From assembly GCA_016932475.1 (NCBI GenBank), contig JAFGCU010000004.1, positions 1-57,885 on the forward strand: 57,885 nucleotides of DNA. The letters are read 5' to 3'. Under the pieces are notes generated by a model. It saw only the letters and a program-made list of their open reading frames with translations. It searched no databases and had not been told where the DNA came from. Position numbers and translations under genes: made by a program. Source of the stretch: Anaerolineales bacterium (GTDB lineage Bacteria; Chloroflexota; Anaerolineae; Anaerolineales; RBG-16-64-43). Shown here piece after piece: positions 34,358 to 46,595 of this stretch. The first letter of the stretch is position 1; each line of letters begins with the position of its first letter.

Positions 34358-35368
34358 CTATTTCCCCATCCCCGCGCGCGCGGCGATCGCCGCAGCCGCG
34401 GACCGGGTCCCGACGCCGAGTTTTTGCAGAATATGATCGACGTGTTTTTTGACCGTGTTGGGCGTGATCGTCAGAGCCTGTGCGATCTGGCGGTTGGTGT
34501 TCCCCTGCGCCAGCAGGGCGAGCACCTCATGCTCCCGTTCGGTCAGCTCGCTCAGCGGATCCGACGCTGCGGACGGATGCGGAGATGCGGGAGCGTCGGG
34601 TTGCGCTTCGGAAGCGAGGATCGCGTCGGCGACGGTCTGTTTGAACGCTTTGCGGTCGAAGGCTTCCTTTTCGATGAAGGCGAACACCCCGAACTCGTCG
34701 TAGGCCCGGTCGATATCGTCCGGCGCGCCGAGCGCGCTGACGACGATCGTCGGCAGGTTGCGCGCCCCGGCCACCCGCAGCAGCGCGTATCCGTCGCGGT
34801 TCTCCTCCGGATCGGCGGAGGAGATCAGGTGCAGGTCGACCACCGCCGCCTGGAACCGCGCCCGCTGCAGCTGGCCGCGTGCCTCTCCGTACGATACGGC
34901 GAACTGGAGTTCGTACCCGGATTCCCCCAGCACATCGGTGTAGATATCGCGCCAGCCGGGATCGTCCTCGACAATAAGGATTTGCGCCGCCTCGCGCCGC
35001 GGAGCGGCTTTCGCCAGGGTGCGCCCAAGCAGCGCAATCAGGTTGTCCTTGCGGAAGGAGGATTTTTCGATGTGCCCGGCGATGAAGGGGCGCGCCCGCG
35101 TAAATTCCGCGATCTCGGATTCGGGTGCGCCGGAAAGCAGGATCACCGGCGTCGGTCCGAGTTTCGCGGCGAGCGCCAATCCGTCGCGGTTGCCCGGATC
35201 GTCCGGATCGAGCGAGACGTCCACCACCGCCGCCTGGCAGGGCGGGAGCGGGGTGGGCGCGGCGGGGGAGAGGACGGTTTTATATCCGGCGTCCGCCAGG
35301 ACATCCGCCACGATCTGCCGCCAGCGCGGGTCGTCATCCACTACGAGGATTGTCTGCGAATTGGTCAT
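34358..35368 (-). CDS. REC-REC-LuxR response regulator
   Basis: 336 residues. Two receiver domains in tandem (about 6-118 and 130-245; each has an acidic pair, VVDDDP and IVEDDP, and a candidate acceptor Asp in AAVVDVSL and AAVVDLHL), then a LuxR/GerE helix-turn-helix at about 272-332 (LTEREHEVLALLAQGNTNRQ, TVKKHVDHILQKLGV). Both receivers have insertions after the acceptor Asp and lack the usual Asp-x-x-Pro, so one or both may be atypical. Start uncertain: ATG 35368 or 35374, with no strong ribosome binding site. It lies 123 bases downstream of the GAF kinase gene on the same strand and is its probable partner. Confidence 0.85.
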   Translation of the reverse strand: MTNSQTILVVDDDPRWRQIVADVLADAGYKTVLSPAAPTPLPPCQAAVVDVSLDPDDPGNRDGLALAAKLGPTPVILLSGAPESEIAEFTRARPFIAGHIEKSSFRKDNLIALLGRTLAKAAPRREAAQILIVEDDPGWRDIYTDVLGESGYELQFAVSYGEARGQLQRARFQAAVVDLHLISSADPEENRDGYALLRVAGARNLPTIVVSALGAPDDIDRAYDEFGVFAFIEKEAFDRKAFKQTVADAILASEAQPDAPASPHPSAASDPLSELTEREHEVLALLAQGNTNRQIAQALTITPNTVKKHVDHILQKLGVGTRSAAAAIAARAGMGK

Positions 35369-35394
35369 GGACATCCCATAAACAGCAAAAGAAA

Positions 35395-35478
35395 TCATAC
35401 CGCAAAGATGCGAAGAACGCCAAGATTTTCTCCGTTTTTTTCTTTGCGTCCTTTGCGGCTTCGCGGTGGGGTTTGTTG
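35395..35478. repeat. Inverted CTTTGCGTCC repeat
   Basis: ACCGCAAAGATGCGAAGAAC on the left and CTTTGCGTCCTTTGCGG plus CTTCGCGGT on the right form an imperfect hairpin between the GAF kinase and its regulator. It belongs to the dispersed family also seen near 1.1 kb. Confidence 0.6.
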
Positions 35479-35491
35479 TTGATGCAGTGGA

Positions 35492-37816
35492 TTATGGAGT
35501 ATCGCCCGGCGCCGCGGGGAGCCCTCCGGGGCGAGCGCCCGAGGGCAGGCGGATCCGGAACGAGCATCCCTCGCCGCAATCGACCAGCCGGATCTCGCCG
35601 CCCAGGCGCGTGATCAGCGTCTTCACCCACCATAATCCAAAACCCAGTTTGCGCGGCGAACGTTTGGTCGAGAAGGCCAGGTCGAATATATTCTCCCGCC
35701 GCTCGGCGGGCACGCCGGGGCCGTTGTCGGAAAGCAGAATCTCCACCATCGGCGGCGGCCCGCCGGACGGATCCGCGGCCGCATGCCCCGACACCCGGAT
35801 GAGCCCGGATGGACCGCCGGATGGCTGCATTGCGGCGAGCGCGTCGGCGGCGTTTTCGATCAGATTGAAAAAAACCAGCCGCAGCTGCTCCTCGCCGGCC
35901 ATCACGTTCGGGAGCGAATCCAGGCCGTCCGTCTCCACTTTAATTCCCGGCGGAAGCTCCAACCGTTCAAGCGCGGTGCGGATACAAACTCCGACCGATG
36001 TGGGCAGAAGCTTAACCGGACGCAGGTAGGCCATCGCTTCCCGGGCGGCGGCCATCGCCGCGCGGGCGTTGTCTTCGATCTCCGTCAGCGCTGCGGAGAG
36101 GTACGCGTCCTCGCTCAGGGCCGGCCGTTTTTCCAGCACGCCCTGCACCCGCACCGGGATGATCCCGACCAGGTTATTGACCCGGTGCAAAAGGTTGGCG
36201 GATACGTCGCCGAGCGCGGCGAACGTTTCCGCCAGAGTCTGGCGTTCGCGCGCCTGGGCCAGCTGGTCGAGCGCCTCGGCGTCCTGGACGGCGATCGCGG
36301 TGTGATTGGCGAGCCAGGTCAGCAGGCGCTGATCCCATTCGGAAAAGGCCCGCGGTTCGGATGAGTAGAGGGTCAGCGCGCCGCGCGGGGTCCCGTCGCG
36401 CATAAGAAGCGGGACGATTAATCCGGATACCCAGCCCATCTTGGCCGCCAGGTCCCGCCGCAGGAAGCGCGGATCGCGCCCGACGTCCGGGCTGATCAGC
36501 GGCTGGCGTTCGCGCAGGGAAATTCCAATCATGCTCCCCGCGATCGGCAGCGTTTCGCCCGGCGTGTGCCCGGCAGTCGCCGCGCGCACCACCAGCGTCT
36601 CCGGATCCTCCGCCGAGAGCACCCACACCACGCCGTGCGGCGCATTGATCAGGTCGCAGGCCTGCTGGATGATGAACTCGAGCAGCCGGTCGAGCGGCCA
36701 GCGCACCATCCGGACCGTGACTTCCTCGAGCGCCTCGAGCAGCCGCGCCTCCTGCAGCGCGATCACCGCTTGGGTGGCGAGCGCCTCCATCAGGCGCTGA
36801 TCGTCCTCGCCGAAGGCGCCCGTCCGCGGGCTCTCGAGGTTGATGACACCCTCCAATGTGCCGCCGGCCCCCAGTAGCGGGGTGGCGAGTTCGGAAAGCA
36901 TCCGGCCTTTGGAATGCAGCGGGCGGTAAATCCGGTTCCATGGTTCGATCCGCAGGTCGTCGATCCGCACCGGCTGCCGGCGTTTGGCGGACCAGCCCAC
37001 CACGCTTGACCCTTCGTCGACCGGAAGATCCGGCTCCGCCGGATCGGACGGCGTCGTTTCCTCCCCGGAGATCGCGGCCAGGCGCAGCGTGCCGTGGCGC
37101 TTGTCGATCAGGCGGAAGGAGCCGTGCGAGGCGCGGGTCAGTTCCACGGCGGTGCGCAGGATCCCGCGCAGCGTTTCTTCCAGGCTGCTGCGCGAGGAGA
37201 TCAGCTGTTCCGCGTTGTGCAGCCGTTCCAGTTCGTCCACCTTGCGCTGCAGGACGCGGTTTATCCCCTCGAAGCGCTGCGTGTTGTGGAGCGCCACCGC
37301 CGCCTGATCGGCCAGCAGGTCCAGGCTCAGAAGCTCCTCCGGCGTAAACCGCCGTTCGGATCTCAGGGAGATGTACAGTGCGCCGGTCGGTTTCTCCGCC
37401 GCCATCAGCGGGTAACAGGCCATCGTGCGGATCCCTGCCTGTGTTTTCTGCTCCTGCATCGGGATCGACGGTTCTTCGTAGGAAAGAAGCCGCTTCCGGT
37501 GGCGGATCGCCCGGGCGCCCATCCCGTCGGGACGTGGAAAATCGTCCGCCGCCGGCCGGCCGGGTTCGCCGGCGCTCGTCCGCGAGGCGCCGTCGAACGC
37601 CGCCCGATCCGTGTCGTACGCGTAGATCACCGCCGCAGGGCCGTCCCCATCCTTCCGGTCGACCAGGCGCACGGCCGTATCCGCGATCAACTGCAGCGCT
37701 TCGGCGGCCGTGTTCTCCACCGATAGGCGGTTGATCTCGGCGGCGGATTCCCGGAGGATGGTCAGCGCCGAGAAGAGGTAAGTTTCGGAGGAGGACGCAG
37801 CGATGTTGGTTCCCAT
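35492..37816 (-). CDS. Multi-GAF cytoplasmic sensor histidine kinase
   Basis: 774 residues without a membrane segment. Three GAF domains can be traced (about 35-190, 215-375 and 390-540; repeated patterns ending in HNTQRFEGINRVLQRKV, ALQEARLLEAL and AIAVQDAEAL), joined by helical linkers. A dimerisation/phospho-acceptor region follows with His in GDVSANLLHRVNNLVGII, then a HATPase domain with N box FNLIENAADAL and G boxes LLSDNGPGVP and KLGFGLWWVKTL. The ligands of the GAF domains are unknown. The C-terminal ~15 residues are disordered. The REC-REC-LuxR gene follows on the same strand. Confidence 0.9.
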   Translation of the reverse strand: MGTNIAASSSETYLFSALTILRESAAEINRLSVENTAAEALQLIADTAVRLVDRKDGDGPAAVIYAYDTDRAAFDGASRTSAGEPGRPAADDFPRPDGMGARAIRHRKRLLSYEEPSIPMQEQKTQAGIRTMACYPLMAAEKPTGALYISLRSERRFTPEELLSLDLLADQAAVALHNTQRFEGINRVLQRKVDELERLHNAEQLISSRSSLEETLRGILRTAVELTRASHGSFRLIDKRHGTLRLAAISGEETTPSDPAEPDLPVDEGSSVVGWSAKRRQPVRIDDLRIEPWNRIYRPLHSKGRMLSELATPLLGAGGTLEGVINLESPRTGAFGEDDQRLMEALATQAVIALQEARLLEALEEVTVRMVRWPLDRLLEFIIQQACDLINAPHGVVWVLSAEDPETLVVRAATAGHTPGETLPIAGSMIGISLRERQPLISPDVGRDPRFLRRDLAAKMGWVSGLIVPLLMRDGTPRGALTLYSSEPRAFSEWDQRLLTWLANHTAIAVQDAEALDQLAQARERQTLAETFAALGDVSANLLHRVNNLVGIIPVRVQGVLEKRPALSEDAYLSAALTEIEDNARAAMAAAREAMAYLRPVKLLPTSVGVCIRTALERLELPPGIKVETDGLDSLPNVMAGEEQLRLVFFNLIENAADALAAMQPSGGPSGLIRVSGHAAADPSGGPPPMVEILLSDNGPGVPAERRENIFDLAFSTKRSPRKLGFGLWWVKTLITRLGGEIRLVDCGEGCSFRIRLPSGARPGGLPAAPGDTP

Positions 37817-38440: not shown

Positions 38441-40048
38441 CTAATTATTGTACGAGGGGTACGGATTGGGAATCTCCACTTGCAGCGCAAATCCGCCGCC
38501 GGGAGGGGGGACGATCTGCATTGATCCGCCGAGCAGCGCCACGCGTTCGCTGACGCCCACCAATCCGAAGTGTTTGTGCGCGGACAGACTTGCCAGATCG
38601 AGGGGTTTGGTCGATCCCTGCCCGTCATCGCTCAGATGCAGGAGCAGGCTGGCGGTCGGGGTGCGTTGAACCTGGAGAAACGCGTTCTTGGCCGCGGCGT
38701 GTTTTCGGATGTTGTTCAAGCCCTCCTGGACGATTCGGAAAACGGACAGTTCGATGCCTTCCGGAAAGCGCCCCAGGTTGGGATCGATCTCAAGGTGCAG
38801 GGAGATATGATTCCGCTCGGCCCATTCATGGGCAAAGGAGCTGATGGCCGCCGGAAGGCCGTGGGTGTCGATGGTGGGCGGACGCAGATCGCCGCAGAGC
38901 TGGCGCAGGTCGCCGACCACACCCCGGATTCCGTCCCGGAGTTCCGCGAGCTCCGACTGCTGGTTCTCCGACTCCGACTTGGCGCCGGCTTCCTCCAGCC
39001 GGTAATTGAAGCTGAGCAGGTCCTGAATGACCTGGTCGTGCAATTCCCGGGCGAGCGATTTCCGTTCTTCCTCGCGCTCGACATCCAGGCGGCGGTGGGC
39101 GGCTTGAAGCGCCAGGTTCAACTGGTTCAACGCTTTCACTTGCGCCTGCAGCCGGCCGATCAGCTGCCGGTTCAGGGAGTCTTTTGCTTCCAGGCTTTCC
39201 TGCAGCGTGGTTTGCGCGCGGCGCAGTTCTTCGGTTTGTTTTTCCGCAAGGTAATAGCTTTCCAGCGCCCAGATGATCGGGGTAACCTGCTCCTGGCGGG
39301 TGGTCCCGATGATCTGCTCGACGATTTCGCGGGGAGTGGTCTCCGATGTGCGGCGGTCGTTGGTCAGCCGCCCTTCGTAGAGCACCAGGATCCGGTCGGT
39401 CACCATGAAGAGGTCGTTGAGGTTGTCGCTGCTGACGATGACGCCGACGTTCTGCTGGGCCAGTTCGCGAATGATCTCCAGGAGGATTTGCTGCCGCTGG
39501 AAACTCAGCGAATCGAGGGAGGCGTCCAGCAGCAGCAACCGCATCGGACGGCAGAGGGCGTGGCACAAGGCCACCACCAGGCGGACCTCATCCGACAGGG
39601 TGCTTACCTGTTTGTTCAGCAGGTCCGGGGGAAGGTTGAACCGGGCAAGCAGCCGGCGCGCCGTGCGGTTCATCCCGCCCCAGTCCGAAAGGTACACAAT
39701 CGGAAACCAGCTCGGCCGGAACAGGAAGACCTCCCGGTCGAAAAATATATTTTGAAGGACATTGCCCCACTCCACCAGCAACGGCTTCTGATACACCAGT
39801 TCGATGCCCAGTTTCTGCGCTTGGTGGGGGTTCGGCAAACTCACGGGCGATCCGTCAAACCGGATTGTCCCGTTGGAGGGAGGATGGACGCCGCCCAGCA
39901 GATTGAGCAGGACGGTTTTTCCGGCGCCGGTCCGGCCGACGATCCCCAGCACTTCCCCCGGATCCAGGGAAAAGGTAATCCCTTCGAGCGCCGTGCGCTT
40001 TCCGAACTTTACCGAAGCGTCCTTCACGCTCAAAAGGGAATGCGCCAC
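38441..40048 (-). CDS. Degenerate sugar-ABC ATPase fused to NarL-type histidine kinase
   Basis: 535 residues, GTG start. Residues 1-250 are an ABC ATPase of the ribose/xylose (CUT2) type: Walker A GRTGAGKT (38-45) and Q-loop Gln87 are intact, but the signature is LSDEV (151-155, normally LSGGQ), Walker B is LLLLDAS (catalytic Glu replaced by Ala176) and the H-loop His is Ser207. It should bind but hardly hydrolyse ATP. A coiled coil (about 265-330) leads to a HisKA_3 domain with phospho-acceptor His337 (SLARELHDQVIQDL), N box EGLNNIRKHA and a HATPase G region (SDDGQGS, GLVGVSERVALLGG). It is fourth gene of an ABC importer operon. I infer that it pairs with the intact ATPase on the permease and converts transporter state into phosphotransfer to the divergent regulator. 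Confidence 0.9.
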   Translation of the reverse strand: MAHSLLSVKDASVKFGKRTALEGITFSLDPGEVLGIVGRTGAGKTVLLNLLGGVHPPSNGTIRFDGSPVSLPNPHQAQKLGIELVYQKPLLVEWGNVLQNIFFDREVFLFRPSWFPIVYLSDWGGMNRTARRLLARFNLPPDLLNKQVSTLSDEVRLVVALCHALCRPMRLLLLDASLDSLSFQRQQILLEIIRELAQQNVGVIVSSDNLNDLFMVTDRILVLYEGRLTNDRRTSETTPREIVEQIIGTTRQEQVTPIIWALESYYLAEKQTEELRRAQTTLQESLEAKDSLNRQLIGRLQAQVKALNQLNLALQAAHRRLDVEREEERKSLARELHDQVIQDLLSFNYRLEEAGAKSESENQQSELAELRDGIRGVVGDLRQLCGDLRPPTIDTHGLPAAISSFAHEWAERNHISLHLEIDPNLGRFPEGIELSVFRIVQEGLNNIRKHAAAKNAFLQVQRTPTASLLLHLSDDGQGSTKPLDLASLSAHKHFGLVGVSERVALLGGSMQIVPPPGGGFALQVEIPNPYPSYNN

Positions 40049-40278: not shown

Positions 40279-41310
40279 TCAGGTCAGCCGCTTGCGCAGA
40301 ATGGATTGCAGAGCGACGGATACGACGATGATAAATCCGTAGATGAGCTGCGTCCAATACGCCGTCCAACCCGCGGCAACGATGCCGGGATTGATGATGG
40401 CGATGATGAAGGCGGCGACGAACGTGCCGAACACGGTGCCGGTTCCGCCGAACACGGAGGTCCCGCCCAGAAACACGGAGGCCAGAGTATTGAGAAGATA
40501 GCCGTCCCCGAGGGTGGGCCAGAGGAACAAAACCTGTTCGCTGACGACGAAGCCCGCAAACGCCGCCGCCACGCCCACGACCGCGAAGGTGGCGATCTTG
40601 GTGCGCTCTACATCCACGCCCATCAGGCGGGCGCTGTCCACGTTGTCGCCGACCAGATAGACATGGGCGCCGAATTTATGGTGATTTAAGAAGAACCATA
40701 CGATGATCCCGAAGGCGATGGTCCATAGGAATTGCGCGGGGATCACACCGAGGAAGCGGCCGACGAAAAGGTTGTATAGGATGGTCTCCTTCACCACCGT
40801 CATGCCCAATCCCTGGCCGTCCGTGACCACCAGTACCACGCCCCGCCAAAAGAATTGCGTTCCGATGGTCGTGACCAGGGAAGGTATTCCCAGTTTGACG
40901 ACGATAAAGCCGTTCAGCCATCCGGCAAACAACCCCGCCAAGAGGCAGGCAAGAAAACCCAGATACACGCCCAACTGGGGATTGGTATCTCTCAGCGCCA
41001 TGAAAACCACGGAAAAAGCCGCCATACCCCATGCCATGATCGATCCAAAGGAAAGATCGATCTCCTTCGCCACGACCACCAACGTCAACGGGATCGCCAT
41101 TAAGGCGAAGTAAGGGGTGGTGGACATCAGCGAGTTGTAGATGGCGTATGAGCCCCAGGTCAGCGGCGACCTCCAGAAGAAAAACGCCCACAACAACAGG
41201 GCGACAAATACGATCGCGATCTGCAAAGCGTACTTGCGGAGCAGCCTTGCGAACTTTCCCCGTTCCTTGGCGGGCGAGAGCGGTCTTTCGGTGGTATTTG
41301 CGGAAGCCAT
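40279..41310 (-). CDS. CUT2-family ABC sugar transporter permease
   Basis: 343 residues, eight to ten membrane helices, of the BPD_transp_2 (RbsC/XylH) family. Landmarks: VVVAKEIDLSFGSIMAWGMA (the EIDLS motif), GWLNGFIVVKLGIPSLVTTIG, GDNVDSARLMGVDVERTKI (the EAA-like coupling loop that contacts the ATPases) and VFLGGTSVFGGTGTVFGTF. It forms the membrane dimer that receives substrate from the binding lipoprotein. The ATPase gene ends 15 bases upstream. The 230-base gap before the ABC-kinase gene could hold an internal promoter or a processing site. Confidence 0.93.
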   Translation of the reverse strand: MASANTTERPLSPAKERGKFARLLRKYALQIAIVFVALLLWAFFFWRSPLTWGSYAIYNSLMSTTPYFALMAIPLTLVVVAKEIDLSFGSIMAWGMAAFSVVFMALRDTNPQLGVYLGFLACLLAGLFAGWLNGFIVVKLGIPSLVTTIGTQFFWRGVVLVVTDGQGLGMTVVKETILYNLFVGRFLGVIPAQFLWTIAFGIIVWFFLNHHKFGAHVYLVGDNVDSARLMGVDVERTKIATFAVVGVAAAFAGFVVSEQVLFLWPTLGDGYLLNTLASVFLGGTSVFGGTGTVFGTFVAAFIIAIINPGIVAAGWTAYWTQLIYGFIIVVSVALQSILRKRLT

Positions 41311-41325
41311 GGGGTATATACCTCC

Positions 41326-42105
41326 CTACCGTGCCTTCGGATGATTGGTTTCCAAGTGGCCGGTTTGGGCGAGATGGGTTAATCGGTCGATCAGTTCGTC
41401 GAATTTTAATTCGCCCTTCTGGAACTGGCCGGCGATCGTGCCGCGGTCGAGCACCACAATGCGGTCCGCCACCGGGTAGACGTGGACGATGTTGTGATCG
41501 ATGAAGATCGCCGATTTTCCGGCTTGTTTTATTCCGTCGACAAAATCCAGGCATTTCCTGGTCTCGGAAATGGAAAGGCCCATTGTCGGTTCGTCGAGGA
41601 TGATCAGCTCGGCTTCGAAATACAGCGCGCGCGTGATGGCGACGCCCTGCCGTTCGCCGCCGGAAAAAGTGCCGACGGTGGATTCCGGGGTTACCGCCGA
41701 GGAGGTGAATCCCATGGCGGTGGACATGAGCTTGCGGGTTTCCCGAACCATCCCGCGTTGATCCAGTACCCCCAGGCGGTTGGAGAGTTCGCGGCCCATG
41801 AAAATATTCCGCCATAGGGATTGCAGGTCGGCCAGCGCCCGCTCCTGGTAGACCACTTCGATTCCCAAATCGCGCGCTTTCGAAACCGTCAGGTGGCTGA
41901 CCTTCTCCTGCTTCCAGAATATCTCTCCGCCGGGATCCGGGCAGTGATAACCGGTGATGATCTTGACCAGCGTGGATTTGCCCGCGCCGTTGTCGCCAAG
42001 CAAGCCCACGATCTCGTTGGTTCCAACTTCGAAGTTCACGTGGTGGAGGGCGGCCACCTCGCCGAATGTCTTGGAAATGTTTTTCATCTGGAGCACATAT
42101 TCCAT
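41326..42105 (-). CDS. CUT2-family ABC sugar transporter ATPase, single catalytic domain
   Basis: 259 residues, one complete ABC domain: Walker A GDNGAGKST, Q-loop VYQERALADL, signature FSGGERQG, Walker B LIILDEPT with catalytic Glu, H-loop FIDHN. Classical RbsA/XylG proteins contain two ABC domains in one chain of about 500 residues; here there is only one. The missing second half may be supplied by a homodimer or, more interestingly, by the ATPase-like domain of the histidine kinase fusion encoded downstream. It would energise import through the permease encoded 15 bases further on. Confidence 0.92.
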   Translation of the reverse strand: MEYVLQMKNISKTFGEVAALHHVNFEVGTNEIVGLLGDNGAGKSTLVKIITGYHCPDPGGEIFWKQEKVSHLTVSKARDLGIEVVYQERALADLQSLWRNIFMGRELSNRLGVLDQRGMVRETRKLMSTAMGFTSSAVTPESTVGTFSGGERQGVAITRALYFEAELIILDEPTMGLSISETRKCLDFVDGIKQAGKSAIFIDHNIVHVYPVADRIVVLDRGTIAGQFQKGELKFDELIDRLTHLAQTGHLETNHPKAR

Positions 42106-42212: not shown

Positions 42213-43286
42213 TTATCGGATGTTCTTTTCCGCGAGCGGCTTGATGATGTCGATATTATCCTTGGTGACAAACCCCGCCCCGGTGTTGATGTCGAGGCCC
42301 GAGAAGCCGTACACCTTGGTCAGGCAGATGTTCAGGATGGGAAGGTAGCCCTGAAGCCACGGCTGCTGGTCGATCACCAATCCGGTGTACCCGCTCTCGA
42401 TCGCAGAGGCTGTCGCGGCGGAAAGATCGAATCCGGCGATGGCAATGGAGCCCGGAGCTTTCCCGGCCGCGTTCATGTACACCTCGGCCGAGGCGGTCAA
42501 CCCGCCGTGATCCAGCACGATCAGTTTAACGTCGGGATGCGACGAAACATAGCCGCTGAATGTCGGAGCGCCCGAGGGCGGATCCGCGTTGGTGGCATCG
42601 TCGATCTCAAGATTGTCCACCACCAATCCGGCGGCTTCCAAGGCGTCGATCACGCCCTTGGTGCGCAAGCCGCGGGTGGGCTGGGAGAGCAAGCCCCAAA
42701 CCATGGCGCGGTCGCCGGCTTTGAGGTTGAAGTACGATACGGATTTGGCGCCCAGCGCATAACCCGCCGGATAGTTCTTGGCCCCGACATAACCGAATCC
42801 GTCGCCGGCATATTTCTCTTGCGCCAGCGGCAGCTCGGAGTTCTGGCTGGTCACGATGATGCCCTTGCTGACGGCATCGTCGATCAACGCATCGAAGGCT
42901 TCATCGCCCGGGTGCCCCATGACGGCGATGCCGTCCGGTTTGGTCGCGGCCACTTCGCTGAATTGTTGGATCATCTTCTGCGGATCCCAATCCGACCATA
43001 CATAATCCACTTTGGGCCCCAGATCCGCCTCGGCCTGCCGGGCGCCGTTGTAAACGTTCACCGCAAACACCCCGCCCTCCGGGCCGCCCGGAAAGAATAC
43101 AATGCGGGTCCCGGCGCACCACTTCGCGGCGGCGGGTTCCGCCGTGGGGCATGGAGCGGCGGTGGGACAGGATCCGGTCCCGGAACCCGTGGATGGAGCG
43201 GCGATGGGATTGGCCGATCCGCAGGCGACGAGAATCCCGGCGAGAAGGACCGCTCCCAAGAGAGAAAACAGTGCGATGCGTTTCAT
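42213..43286 (-). CDS. Sugar-binding lipoprotein of CUT2 ABC transporter
   Basis: 357 residues from ATG 43286 (AAGGAGG about 10 bases ahead). Signal sequence with lipobox LVAC, then a Pro/Thr/Ser linker, then a type I periplasmic-binding fold (Peripla_BP_4, RbsB/XylF-like): GGVFAVNVYNGARQAEADLG, KPDGIAVMGHPGDEAFDALI, IIVTSQNSE, a lobe-swap hinge, IAIAGFDLSAATASAIESGY and VIDQQPWLQGYLPI. Binding residues look like those of pentose/ribose-type receptors, but the ligand cannot be told. It delivers substrate to the permease and, in this locus, would be the primary input of the signalling pathway. It is the first gene of the operon. Confidence 0.92.
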   Translation of the reverse strand: MKRIALFSLLGAVLLAGILVACGSANPIAAPSTGSGTGSCPTAAPCPTAEPAAAKWCAGTRIVFFPGGPEGGVFAVNVYNGARQAEADLGPKVDYVWSDWDPQKMIQQFSEVAATKPDGIAVMGHPGDEAFDALIDDAVSKGIIVTSQNSELPLAQEKYAGDGFGYVGAKNYPAGYALGAKSVSYFNLKAGDRAMVWGLLSQPTRGLRTKGVIDALEAAGLVVDNLEIDDATNADPPSGAPTFSGYVSSHPDVKLIVLDHGGLTASAEVYMNAAGKAPGSIAIAGFDLSAATASAIESGYTGLVIDQQPWLQGYLPILNICLTKVYGFSGLDINTGAGFVTKDNIDIIKPLAEKNIR

Positions 43287-43689
43287 TTTTTCCTGCCTCC
43301 TTTTGTTGAAAAACCTCTGGCTTTCGGATAGCGATCGTTTTTCCAGCGCTTGCCGTTGGAAGAATTTTCTTCCTTCGAGCTCGGGAACCATTGACGATCC
43401 GGCGAGAAGTGACCGTGGATTACGGGAAGCCCTGGTTCTCTCCCGGCCGGTTCTTCGCAACGGCGAGGGAACACCTCCTTTCCTCCCTCTGGACCGGGGA
43501 GCGGTAATGGAAACAGTTGTCGGCTGTCTTGGAAGGACGGGACGTCTTCACCCGCCATTGTTCATTCTATGGAATGTCCGGCTCGGAACAAGTTATTTTT
43601 CCCCTATCGCGGCCGTGGAATCCTCCCGATCCATCCGGGGGATATCCCCGTCTCTGGAAGATTCCCGCCAAATGTAGTCTAATGGCTGC
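43287..43689. promoter_or_regulatory. Divergent control region of importer operon and regulator gene
   Basis: Gene-free stretch of 400 bases between the binding-protein gene (leftward) and the REC-LuxR-REC gene (rightward). It must hold promoters for both and is the natural place for binding sites of the regulator. I see no clear inverted repeat of the NarL heptamer type. Confidence 0.55.
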
Positions 43690-44730
43690 ATGTGCGATGC
43701 CCTGCTTGCGGATGATCATGCCGTGGTGCGCGCGGGATTGCGGAAGGCGATGGAAAGCGACTCGGCGATTCGCATCGTCGGCGAGGTGGGAGACGGCAAA
43801 TCGCTGGAGCAATCCCTGGACCGCCTTCGTCCGGATTTGCTGGTGATCGATGTCGCGATGCCGGAGTTCGAACCGATTTCCGCGATTCGACGCATCAAAA
43901 ACCTCTATCCGCAAATAAAAATCCTTGTGGTGAGCGCCTACGACGACGAAGCTTATGTGGTGGGTTTGCTGGAGGCCGGCGTGGACGGATACCACCTGAA
44001 GGACCAGCCGCTTTCGGACCTCCAACTCGCCGTCCAGCGGGTGCTGTCGGGGGAGCGCTGGATCTCCAGCCCGTTGATCGATCGATTGCTGCATCGCCGC
44101 CCCGCTTCTTCCGCGACGAACCTCCCCCCGCTTACCCGGCGCCAACGGGAATTGCTGCGTCTGATCAGCCAGGGTTGCGACAACCGCAAGATCTCCCAGG
44201 CCATGGAGTTAAGCGTAAAAACGGTGGAAAACCATCTGACCGGCCTCTACCGCGTGTTGGGGGTGGACAGCCGGTTGGAGGCGATGAATTACGCCGTTCA
44301 TCACCCGGAGGTGCTTGCCGTGTCGGGGCGCGAAACGGAGGAGCCGGACCCCAGCTCGGAATCGGCGATCCAGATATTGGTCGTGGACGACAGTTCCCGC
44401 TATCGGCAGCAGCTTTGTCGGTTGATCGGCAAAACCTGTCCGTCGTCGCAACTGTACGAGGCCGAGGATACTGCCGAGGCTGTGCGTTTGGCGGAGCGAA
44501 TCCGTCCGCGCCTGGCGTTGGTGGATGTGGTATTAACGGATGAGGATGGAATCCAATGCGCCAGGCGCTTGAAAACCATCGCTCCTTCCACCCGCATCGT
44601 CTTGATCAGCGCCTATCCCGACCGGGAATTCCGCCGTTTGGGGTTGGCGGCCGGGGCGGTTGCATTGCTAGATAAAAAGGATCTGGATGCCGCCGCCGTG
44701 CGGCAGGTGCTGGAGGATGCGCTGGGGTAA
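43690..44730 (+). CDS. REC-LuxR-REC response regulator
   Basis: 346 residues with an unusual order. The first receiver (3-120: acidic ADD at 7-9, acceptor Asp54 in VIDVAMPE, Lys in YHLKDQPL) is NarL-like. A LuxR helix-turn-helix follows at about 140-200 (LTRRQRELLRLISQG, SVKTVENHLTGLYRVLGV), and a second receiver at about 228-346 (VVDDSSRYRQQ, acceptor Asp in ALVDVVLTDEDG, Lys in LLDKKDLD). NarL-family regulators pair with HisKA_3 kinases, and the only such kinase nearby is the ABC fusion, so this is its likely partner. It is transcribed away from the importer operon. The start is uncertain because no good ribosome binding site is visible. Confidence 0.9.
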   Translation: MCDALLADDHAVVRAGLRKAMESDSAIRIVGEVGDGKSLEQSLDRLRPDLLVIDVAMPEFEPISAIRRIKNLYPQIKILVVSAYDDEAYVVGLLEAGVDGYHLKDQPLSDLQLAVQRVLSGERWISSPLIDRLLHRRPASSATNLPPLTRRQRELLRLISQGCDNRKISQAMELSVKTVENHLTGLYRVLGVDSRLEAMNYAVHHPEVLAVSGRETEEPDPSSESAIQILVVDDSSRYRQQLCRLIGKTCPSSQLYEAEDTAEAVRLAERIRPRLALVDVVLTDEDGIQCARRLKTIAPSTRIVLISAYPDREFRRLGLAAGAVALLDKKDLDAAAVRQVLEDALG

Positions 44731-45062: not shown

Positions 45063-46595
45063 CTACACGCTGTCCCTTCCGGGGGCGTATACGCGGATCG
45101 CGGCTTCGCCGTTCACCGGGCATTTATATTCGCACGTGCCGCAGCCGATGCAATTCGTGCGGTCCACGACCGGCGCGCCGCCGGAGAACTCCGAGTAATC
45201 CACGGTGATCGCTTTTTCCGGCAGCGGGCACATCTCCTCGCACACCAGGCATTCCTGGTGGTCGGACCAGGCGATGCAGCGATTCCGGTCGACGTAGGCG
45301 GCGCCGAGCACCTGCTGCTGCTTTTCCTCAAGCGGCAGGGGAGGGATCGCCTCGACCGGGCAGACCTGTCCGCAGGCGTTGCACGAATACTGGCAGAAGC
45401 CGGCGCGCGCGATCAGGACCGGGGTCCAAAAACCTTCCACGCCGGCCTCGCCCACCGCCGGGTGCAGCACCCCGGTCGGACAGATGCGCACGCATTCCCC
45501 GCAGCGGATGCATTTCGAGAGCAGATCGTTTTCTTTGGCGCCCGGAGGGCGGAGCAGGTGCGGGAGGTCGCGCCGCAGGTACTGGTCGGTCCGCAGGAGC
45601 GCGACGCCGCCGACAGCCGCACCGATCGCGGCCAGCGCCTGCCTTCTGCCCGGATCGTAGGAATTCCAGCCGGCCGGGCGGAGGTGCGCCGGAAATGTTT
45701 GGCCGGAGCGCGGGCACACCGTCACGCAATCCAGGCACATAATGCACTCGGCGGGGTCGCTGGCATCGGCTTTGTCCGGGCGGATCGTGCCGGTCGGGCA
45801 GACGCGGGCGCAGGCGCCGCAGTTGGTGCATGTGGCCGGGTTCACCTCGCGCCGGAAGATCGCCAGCTTGCCGGTCAGCCCGAGCAGGGATCCGAGCGGG
45901 CACAGGTAGCGGCACCAGAAGCGGGGGGCCAGCGCGTTCAACGCGACGACCCCGATGAAGAAGGCCGCGATCAGAACGCCGCCAGCGGTGAACGCGGGAT
46001 CGGCTGGAAGCAGCGCCGGGCGGAGAATTCTGTCCAAACCGGAGATGGAGTCGCGCAGCGCGGAGACGCTGTACAACGCTTCCTCCACGGCGAAAACGAT
46101 CCGATCCAACGCCGGGTAGACAGCCTCGGTCAGGGTCCGGATCATGATCGTCAGCGGGTCGAGGAGCATCAGCCATAGGCTGCCCAGCAGCGCGGAGGTC
46201 AGGATCGCCGTAAGCAGGAAGTGTTTGATCCCGCGCGCGGCTTCGGGGATGGAAGGTTGTTTGTTTTTCCAGCGGCGCGGATGAAAGAGGTCGAGCGTGG
46301 TTCCAAGCGGGCAGATCCAGCCGCACCACACGCGCCCCAGAAGGATGGTCAAAAGGACGGTCAGCAGCGCGAGTGCCATGCCTCTGACGTATGCCTTCGA
46401 TGCGAGCAGGCCCGCCAGCATCGCCAGCGGATCCAGATGCAGGAACAGGCTTCCGGCCTGCGGGGGCACCCCGCCGCGCACCGTCCGCAGGAAGAGAAAC
46501 AGAAAAAGCGCGAGCGCAACCGCCTGGACGGCGGAGCGCGCCACCCGCCAGTAGCGGTCTTTCCATTGGAACGGTTTGCGCGGTTCGTCAGCCAA
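45063..46595 (-). CDS. Membrane-bound polyferredoxin (NapH/FixG-like)
   Basis: 510 residues. About five membrane helices in the N-terminal half, with two copies of the NapH-type motif (CGWICPLGTTLDLF and CRYLCPLGSLLGLTG). Then a chain of [4Fe-4S] motifs: CTNCGACARVCPTG, CIMCLDCVTVCPR, CIRCGECVRICPTG, CNACGQVCP, CLVCEEMCPLP and CIGCGTCEYKCPVN, that is, at least five clusters. A hydrophobic segment at about 320 (AAIGAAVGGVALL) may be a further helix. It probably moves electrons between the quinone pool and an exported partner. The stop overlaps the start region of the DUF362 gene upstream by 8 bases, so the two form one unit. Confidence 0.88.
   Translation of the reverse strand: MADEPRKPFQWKDRYWRVARSAVQAVALALFLFLFLRTVRGGVPPQAGSLFLHLDPLAMLAGLLASKAYVRGMALALLTVLLTILLGRVWCGWICPLGTTLDLFHPRRWKNKQPSIPEAARGIKHFLLTAILTSALLGSLWLMLLDPLTIMIRTLTEAVYPALDRIVFAVEEALYSVSALRDSISGLDRILRPALLPADPAFTAGGVLIAAFFIGVVALNALAPRFWCRYLCPLGSLLGLTGKLAIFRREVNPATCTNCGACARVCPTGTIRPDKADASDPAECIMCLDCVTVCPRSGQTFPAHLRPAGWNSYDPGRRQALAAIGAAVGGVALLRTDQYLRRDLPHLLRPPGAKENDLLSKCIRCGECVRICPTGVLHPAVGEAGVEGFWTPVLIARAGFCQYSCNACGQVCPVEAIPPLPLEEKQQQVLGAAYVDRNRCIAWSDHQECLVCEEMCPLPEKAITVDYSEFSGGAPVVDRTNCIGCGTCEYKCPVNGEAAIRVYAPGRDSV

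Follow-up and report, generated by a model that had tools for sequence, protein, structure and literature searches.

A histidine kinase fused to a degenerate CUT2-type ATPase domain in Anaerolineales: an importer apparently rebuilt into a nutrient receptor

A 57,885-nucleotide stretch of DNA from an Anaerolineales bacterium (the whole of which we call the window) carries, at 38441–40048 on the minus strand, an open reading frame of 535 amino acids that joins a CUT2/XylG-type ABC domain, through a long helix, to a complete HisKA_3 histidine kinase. The ABC domain has lost several of its catalytic motifs, as a preliminary description of this DNA had noticed; that observation is confirmed here, with one position corrected. 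On balance we favor the reading that this pseudo-ATPase serves to dock the kinase on a sugar permease, producing an importer-derived receptor whose output runs through a linked response regulator (RR2), so that an importer has apparently been converted into a receptor for nutrients outside the cell.

The reading frame of the fusion starts with a GTG codon, downstream of GGGAGGAG. Its ABC domain (the nucleotide-binding domain, or NBD; residues 1–253, 39290..40048, minus strand) matches Pfam ABC_tran over residues 21–175 (E 6.9e-21), is modeled by AlphaFold with a pLDDT of about 90, and in a Foldseek comparison with the PDB has best matches that are all ABC NBDs; the closest family models are YtfR, xylose, XylG and RbsA. 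The kinase part (38441..39070, minus strand) matches HisKA_3 (E 1.1e-11) and HATPase_c (E 2.9e-05), the latter at 24.9 bits, slightly below the curated Pfam cut-off of 26.4, and UhpB is among the top NCBIfam matches of the kinase half (1.4e-26). The residues His337, Asn446, Asp474, Gly476 and Gly478 are intact in 50/50 relatives, so that the sensory role proposed earlier fits the protein to which the ABC domain belongs, a sensor kinase with intact kinase residues. Between the two parts lies a linker (residues 252–357; 38990..39292, minus strand) predicted as one continuous helix that leads from the ABC domain into the dimerization helix of the kinase. Across 50 aligned relatives there is a single one-residue gap in residues 249–353, and such near-constant length is what a rigid transmitter would need. 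No clear transmembrane segment was found in the window fusion (maximum 19-residue hydropathy 1.48), and one of 50 relatives exceeds 1.6.

In the window fusion the Walker A motif reads G38-R-T-G-A-G-K44-T45 and the Q-loop Gln is Q87; both had been described as kept, and both are. The signature LSDEV (L151-S-D-E-V155) and the Ala in place of the Walker B Glu (LLLLD175-A176) were likewise read correctly. The loss of the H-loop His also stands, but not its placement at Ser207: when the segment I204-V-S-S-D208-N is aligned jointly with 17 canonical domains, the His column falls on Asp208, with Ser207 corresponding to the Ser found just before the His of working domains. Compared with an active CUT2 NBD, the domain thus has the fold and Walker A, and lacks the signature, the Walker B Glu and the H-loop His.

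These losses are shared widely. The fusion family was found in 69 of 400 genomes of the order and in 27 of 400 genomes of the phylum (E <= 1e-80), as well as at 17 named loci, including one of the isolate Ornatilinea apprima. Full-length relatives were taken from the order, the phylum and the named genome collection, covering Anaerolineae and further families of Chloroflexota, and motifs were counted in an alignment of 50 of them, the window fusion included. In all 50 the H-loop His is absent and the second Gly of the signature is Glu; two losses fixed in 50/50 relatives are not chance. The Walker B Glu column is mixed (Asp in 27, Glu in 16, Asn in 4, and Ala, Gly and Ser in one each), with at least eight changes on the tree. 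Of the three substitutions whose fixation in homologues had been proposed as a check, therefore, the His and signature losses are fixed and the Walker B change is not. Homologues with intact motifs, which would have spoken against a crippled domain, do not occur among the 50 relatives. By comparison, linked single-domain ATPases and N-half ATPases have the Lys, Glu and His in 17/17, with Gly or Ala at the second signature Gly. The conserved motif losses support the proposal that hydrolysis has very probably been lost, and the loss is old and conserved. Nucleotide binding, which had been thought to be retained, presents a less uniform picture: the Walker A Lys is kept in 46 of the 50 and replaced by Val, Ile or Thr in the other four (two losses on the tree), so retention would be common in the family and not universal. 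To judge by this Lys, some nucleotide role for the ABC domain probably remains.

All fusion ABC domains form one clade with one origin (SH-aLRT 99–100), which stands in the tree beside the single-domain and N-half CUT2 ATPases, not the C-halves. The degenerate C-half of CUT2 ATPases was rejected as their ancestor on the tree and on Walker A. Purifying selection acts on the ABC domain (dN/dS about 0.04–0.33 in pairs where it was computable); a decaying pseudogene was rejected in view of this selection, the open frame and the invariant kinase residues, and a misannotated canonical ATPase was likewise considered for the ABC domain and rejected. A segment of the NIFLGRE type near fusion residues 100–106 (NIFFDRE in the window), which we take, from importer structures, to be part of the permease-facing region, has the same majority residue in fusions and working ATPases in 7/7 columns, with conservation of 0.85 in the former and 0.83 in the latter. 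The Walker B and switch segments have drifted in the fusions, where their conservation is 0.60 and 0.58, against 0.88 and 0.75 in working ATPases.

Loss of Walker A was also rejected for a subgroup whose match began at residue 79, since the motif is present and a 27-residue insertion had broken the match. The 27-residue insertion in L183–L187, at fusion residues about 90–135, looks as if the permease-facing segment had been duplicated in tandem: LINRFDFSSHIFSYRD..., followed by LVEEFDVTQNILLGRE.

The fusion follows an importer operon in the window. A sugar-type substrate-binding protein (Peripla_BP_4, Pfam 6e-29; 42213..43460) comes first, then a single-domain CUT2 ATPase with all motifs (Pfam 4.9e-25; 41326..42105), a CUT2-type permease (BPD_transp_2, Pfam 1.5e-39; 40279..41310) whose coupling loop reads GDN, not GGN, and, after a gap of 230 bases, the fusion, all on the minus strand. 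The ATPase carries GDNGAGKST, FSGGE, LDEPT and the His, which agrees with the earlier statement that the neighboring ATPase has all its motifs, its signature being slightly off-consensus; in the tree its end branch (2.18) is long by comparison with those of other single-domain CUT2 ATPases. Divergent from the operon is RR2, a REC-LuxR-REC response regulator by Pfam with both receiver Asp (43690..44730, plus strand). Downstream of the fusion are a GAF-rich histidine kinase (35492..37816, minus strand) and a REC-REC-LuxR regulator (34358..35398, minus strand), both recognized by Pfam, the regulator being the probable partner of that kinase; among the compared loci these two genes (34358–37816) stand beside the fusion only in the same genus (L047). 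A cysteine-rich, ferredoxin-like membrane protein with CxxCxxCxxxCP motifs, read by eye (45063–46595, minus strand), adjoins the cluster.

RR2 is a conserved genomic partner of the fusion and is of the LuxR type expected of partners of HisKA_3 kinases. Of 52 loci retrieved, several of them contig ends, 39 contain it, with 48–69% identity among relatives and both receiver Asp kept in 35/35. A CUT2 importer is usually present at fusion loci as well. The binding protein of this linked importer has two tandem Peripla_BP_4 domains in one chain at L055 (5944–8130), L063 (10969–13200), L066 (3297–5573), L183 (10287–12425), L187 (5668–7830) and L191 (11649–13814), and three at L070 (713–3952).

The preliminary description had gone further and proposed an asymmetric ATPase dimer with one active site, and here the placement of the defects argues against it. 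The charged residue at the second signature Gly of the fusion lies at what we take to be the position of CFTR G551D. G551D is a gating-defective mutant, and ABC sites are composite, assembled head to tail; in CFTR-like asymmetric dimers, one subunit brings the Walker B and switch defects and the other the signature defect to a single composite site, and the second composite site is intact (PMC3434365). The fusion resembles these dimers in the altered Walker B, switch and signature of their non-hydrolytic site; there, however, each subunit carries part of the damage and one site still functions (PMC3434365), whereas in the fusion all of the defects are on one chain. With sites built head to tail, the fusion signature would spoil the site of its neighbor, and the missing Glu and His its own, so that a pair with a canonical ATPase would have no consensus site and a pair of two fusions no working site. 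This composite-site pattern, together with the charged residue at the G551D position, leaves the loss of hydrolysis well supported and the single active site not.

The same evidence bears on the idea of an asymmetric ATPase formed on a shared permease by the fusion ABC domain and the canonical ATPase, the kinase reading transport flux. Such pairing would suit the order of binding protein, single-domain ATPase, permease and fusion, which is found in the window and at L051, L053, L066, L070, L182 and L194, and would suit the Walker A kept in 46/50; it is nevertheless unlikely, since the signature Glu (50/50) would lie opposite the partner's ATP and leave no consensus site, the single-domain ATPases have a full set of motifs and do not require a partner, and the ATPase at other loci already consists of two fused halves. 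A non-hydrolyzing hetero-pair of the fusion ABC domain and the ATPase, serving as a brake, is possible. At the window locus, whose single permease would serve both the fusion and the working ATPase, the fusion may read flux or act as a brake.

A different arrangement is found at 11 loci (L045, L046, L048, L049, L067, L178–L181, L188 and L193), where the fusion is immediately preceded by the genes of a binding protein and a permease that have no ATPase gene of their own, unlike the window, in which the sole permease adjoins the ATPase gene. The binding protein of the short type of these pairs has strong matches (>570 bits) in 6 of 400 phylum genomes, each of them at a fusion locus; weaker cousins (at most 351 bits) occur elsewhere, and at the cousin loci L203–L205 there is a two-domain ATPase, no fusion, and a permease that keeps GGN. 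This coupling motif is present in 34 of 35 ATPase-linked permeases (L203–L205 and 31 others; GDN in the window permease), is lost from 8 fusion-only permeases of the short type (GRD, GRN, GRS, GSD or GNS) and is kept as GGN or GGS in three fusion-only permeases of the long type, an imperfect signal that may reflect few evolutionary events, as the permeases are not independent and the short-type ones may descend from one event. Many fusion loci have one permease only, and at L176–L177 no permease or binding protein was found within about 8 kb of the fusion.

Several of the ATPase-less clusters also hold a complete importer, whose ATPase the extra permease could borrow. It might accordingly be one half of a heteromeric permease that uses the linked two-domain ATPase, with the fusion regulating by some unrelated contact, and at L045, L178–L181 and L193 both permeases do follow one ATPase gene in the same direction. 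We consider this improbable: importers of the same type do without an extra permease at L050, L062, L063, L065, L071 and L073, and again at L175, L183, L187, L189 and L191, the cousin permeases (L203–L205) form one-permease importers of their own, and the extra pair comes with a binding protein of its own and, at L048, is oriented divergently to the importer. Marginally less probable still is that the ABC domain acts as a soluble sensor of nucleotides or energy and regulates the kinase without touching a permease, since this fits the Walker A Lys in 46/50 and a fusion protein without a clear transmembrane segment, but leaves unexplained why CUT2 binding proteins and permeases are linked to the fusion, why some of these pairs have no ATPase and why NIFLGRE is kept, and is at odds with the four relatives that have no Walker A Lys.

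Docking of the kinase onto the permease, the reading we prefer, would work as follows. The ABC domain would be a pseudo-ATPase serving as a docking and coupling module, one that retains from a CUT2 (ribose/xylose-type) ATPase its fold and the surface facing the permease and, as far as its sequence tells, could not run the ATPase cycle. Two fusion chains, dimerized through their kinases, would sit under the two-fold permease at the usual ATPase positions. On the outside, the sugar-loaded binding protein would move the permease, and this movement would pass through the pseudo-ATPase and the rigid helix of fixed length to alter kinase activity; RR2, the REC-LuxR-REC regulator, would then receive the phosphate, and the linked importer is its plausible target. 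At loci with a further, ATPase-less pair of binding protein and permease ahead of the fusion, the complex would be a dedicated receptor assembled from importer parts. That a whole ABC importer has been turned into a transmembrane receptor kinase, in which substrate capture drives signaling instead of transport, is a stronger claim, which we put forward more tentatively and lean slightly away from.

If docking proves true, it would offer a compact way to read external sugar through the importer's own substrate specificity, would account for an ATPase fold kept after catalysis was lost, and would provide a system in which the movement of an ABC permease could be followed through the activity of a kinase. 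Some sensor kinases are known to take their input from transporters; in the open-access literature we found no account of a dead importer ATPase as the input of a kinase, and no earlier description of a fusion between an ABC NBD and a kinase.

Among known systems, UhpC-UhpB-UhpA pairs a transporter homologue, the MFS protein UhpC, with the kinase UhpB, which has a membrane part of its own, and the LuxR-type regulator UhpA. This system, which senses glucose-6-phosphate, likewise leads from a membrane sensor of an external solute through a kinase to a regulator that induces an importer (PMC11077982). The sensor proposed here, in contrast, would consist of ABC importer parts, and its kinase is joined to a pseudo-ATPase and lacks a clear membrane segment. 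BceAB-BceS also combines an ABC transporter and a histidine kinase into one sensory unit, but BceS contacts BceB via membrane helices and the ATPase is active, whereas the kinase described here is joined to a probably inactive CUT2-type NBD (PMC10314905). Nor is the fusion part of a Bce-type module, as it has no clear membrane helices by hydropathy and the permease is BPD_transp_2. The CUT2 ATPases RbsA, XylG and MglA are the closest relatives of the fusion ABC domain, and their second half is also degenerate (PMC11466899). The manner of degeneration differs, however: the CUT2 C-halves that we compared have no Walker A Lys and no His and keep LSGGN and the Walker B Glu, whereas the fusion mostly keeps the Walker A Lys and loses the signature and the His.
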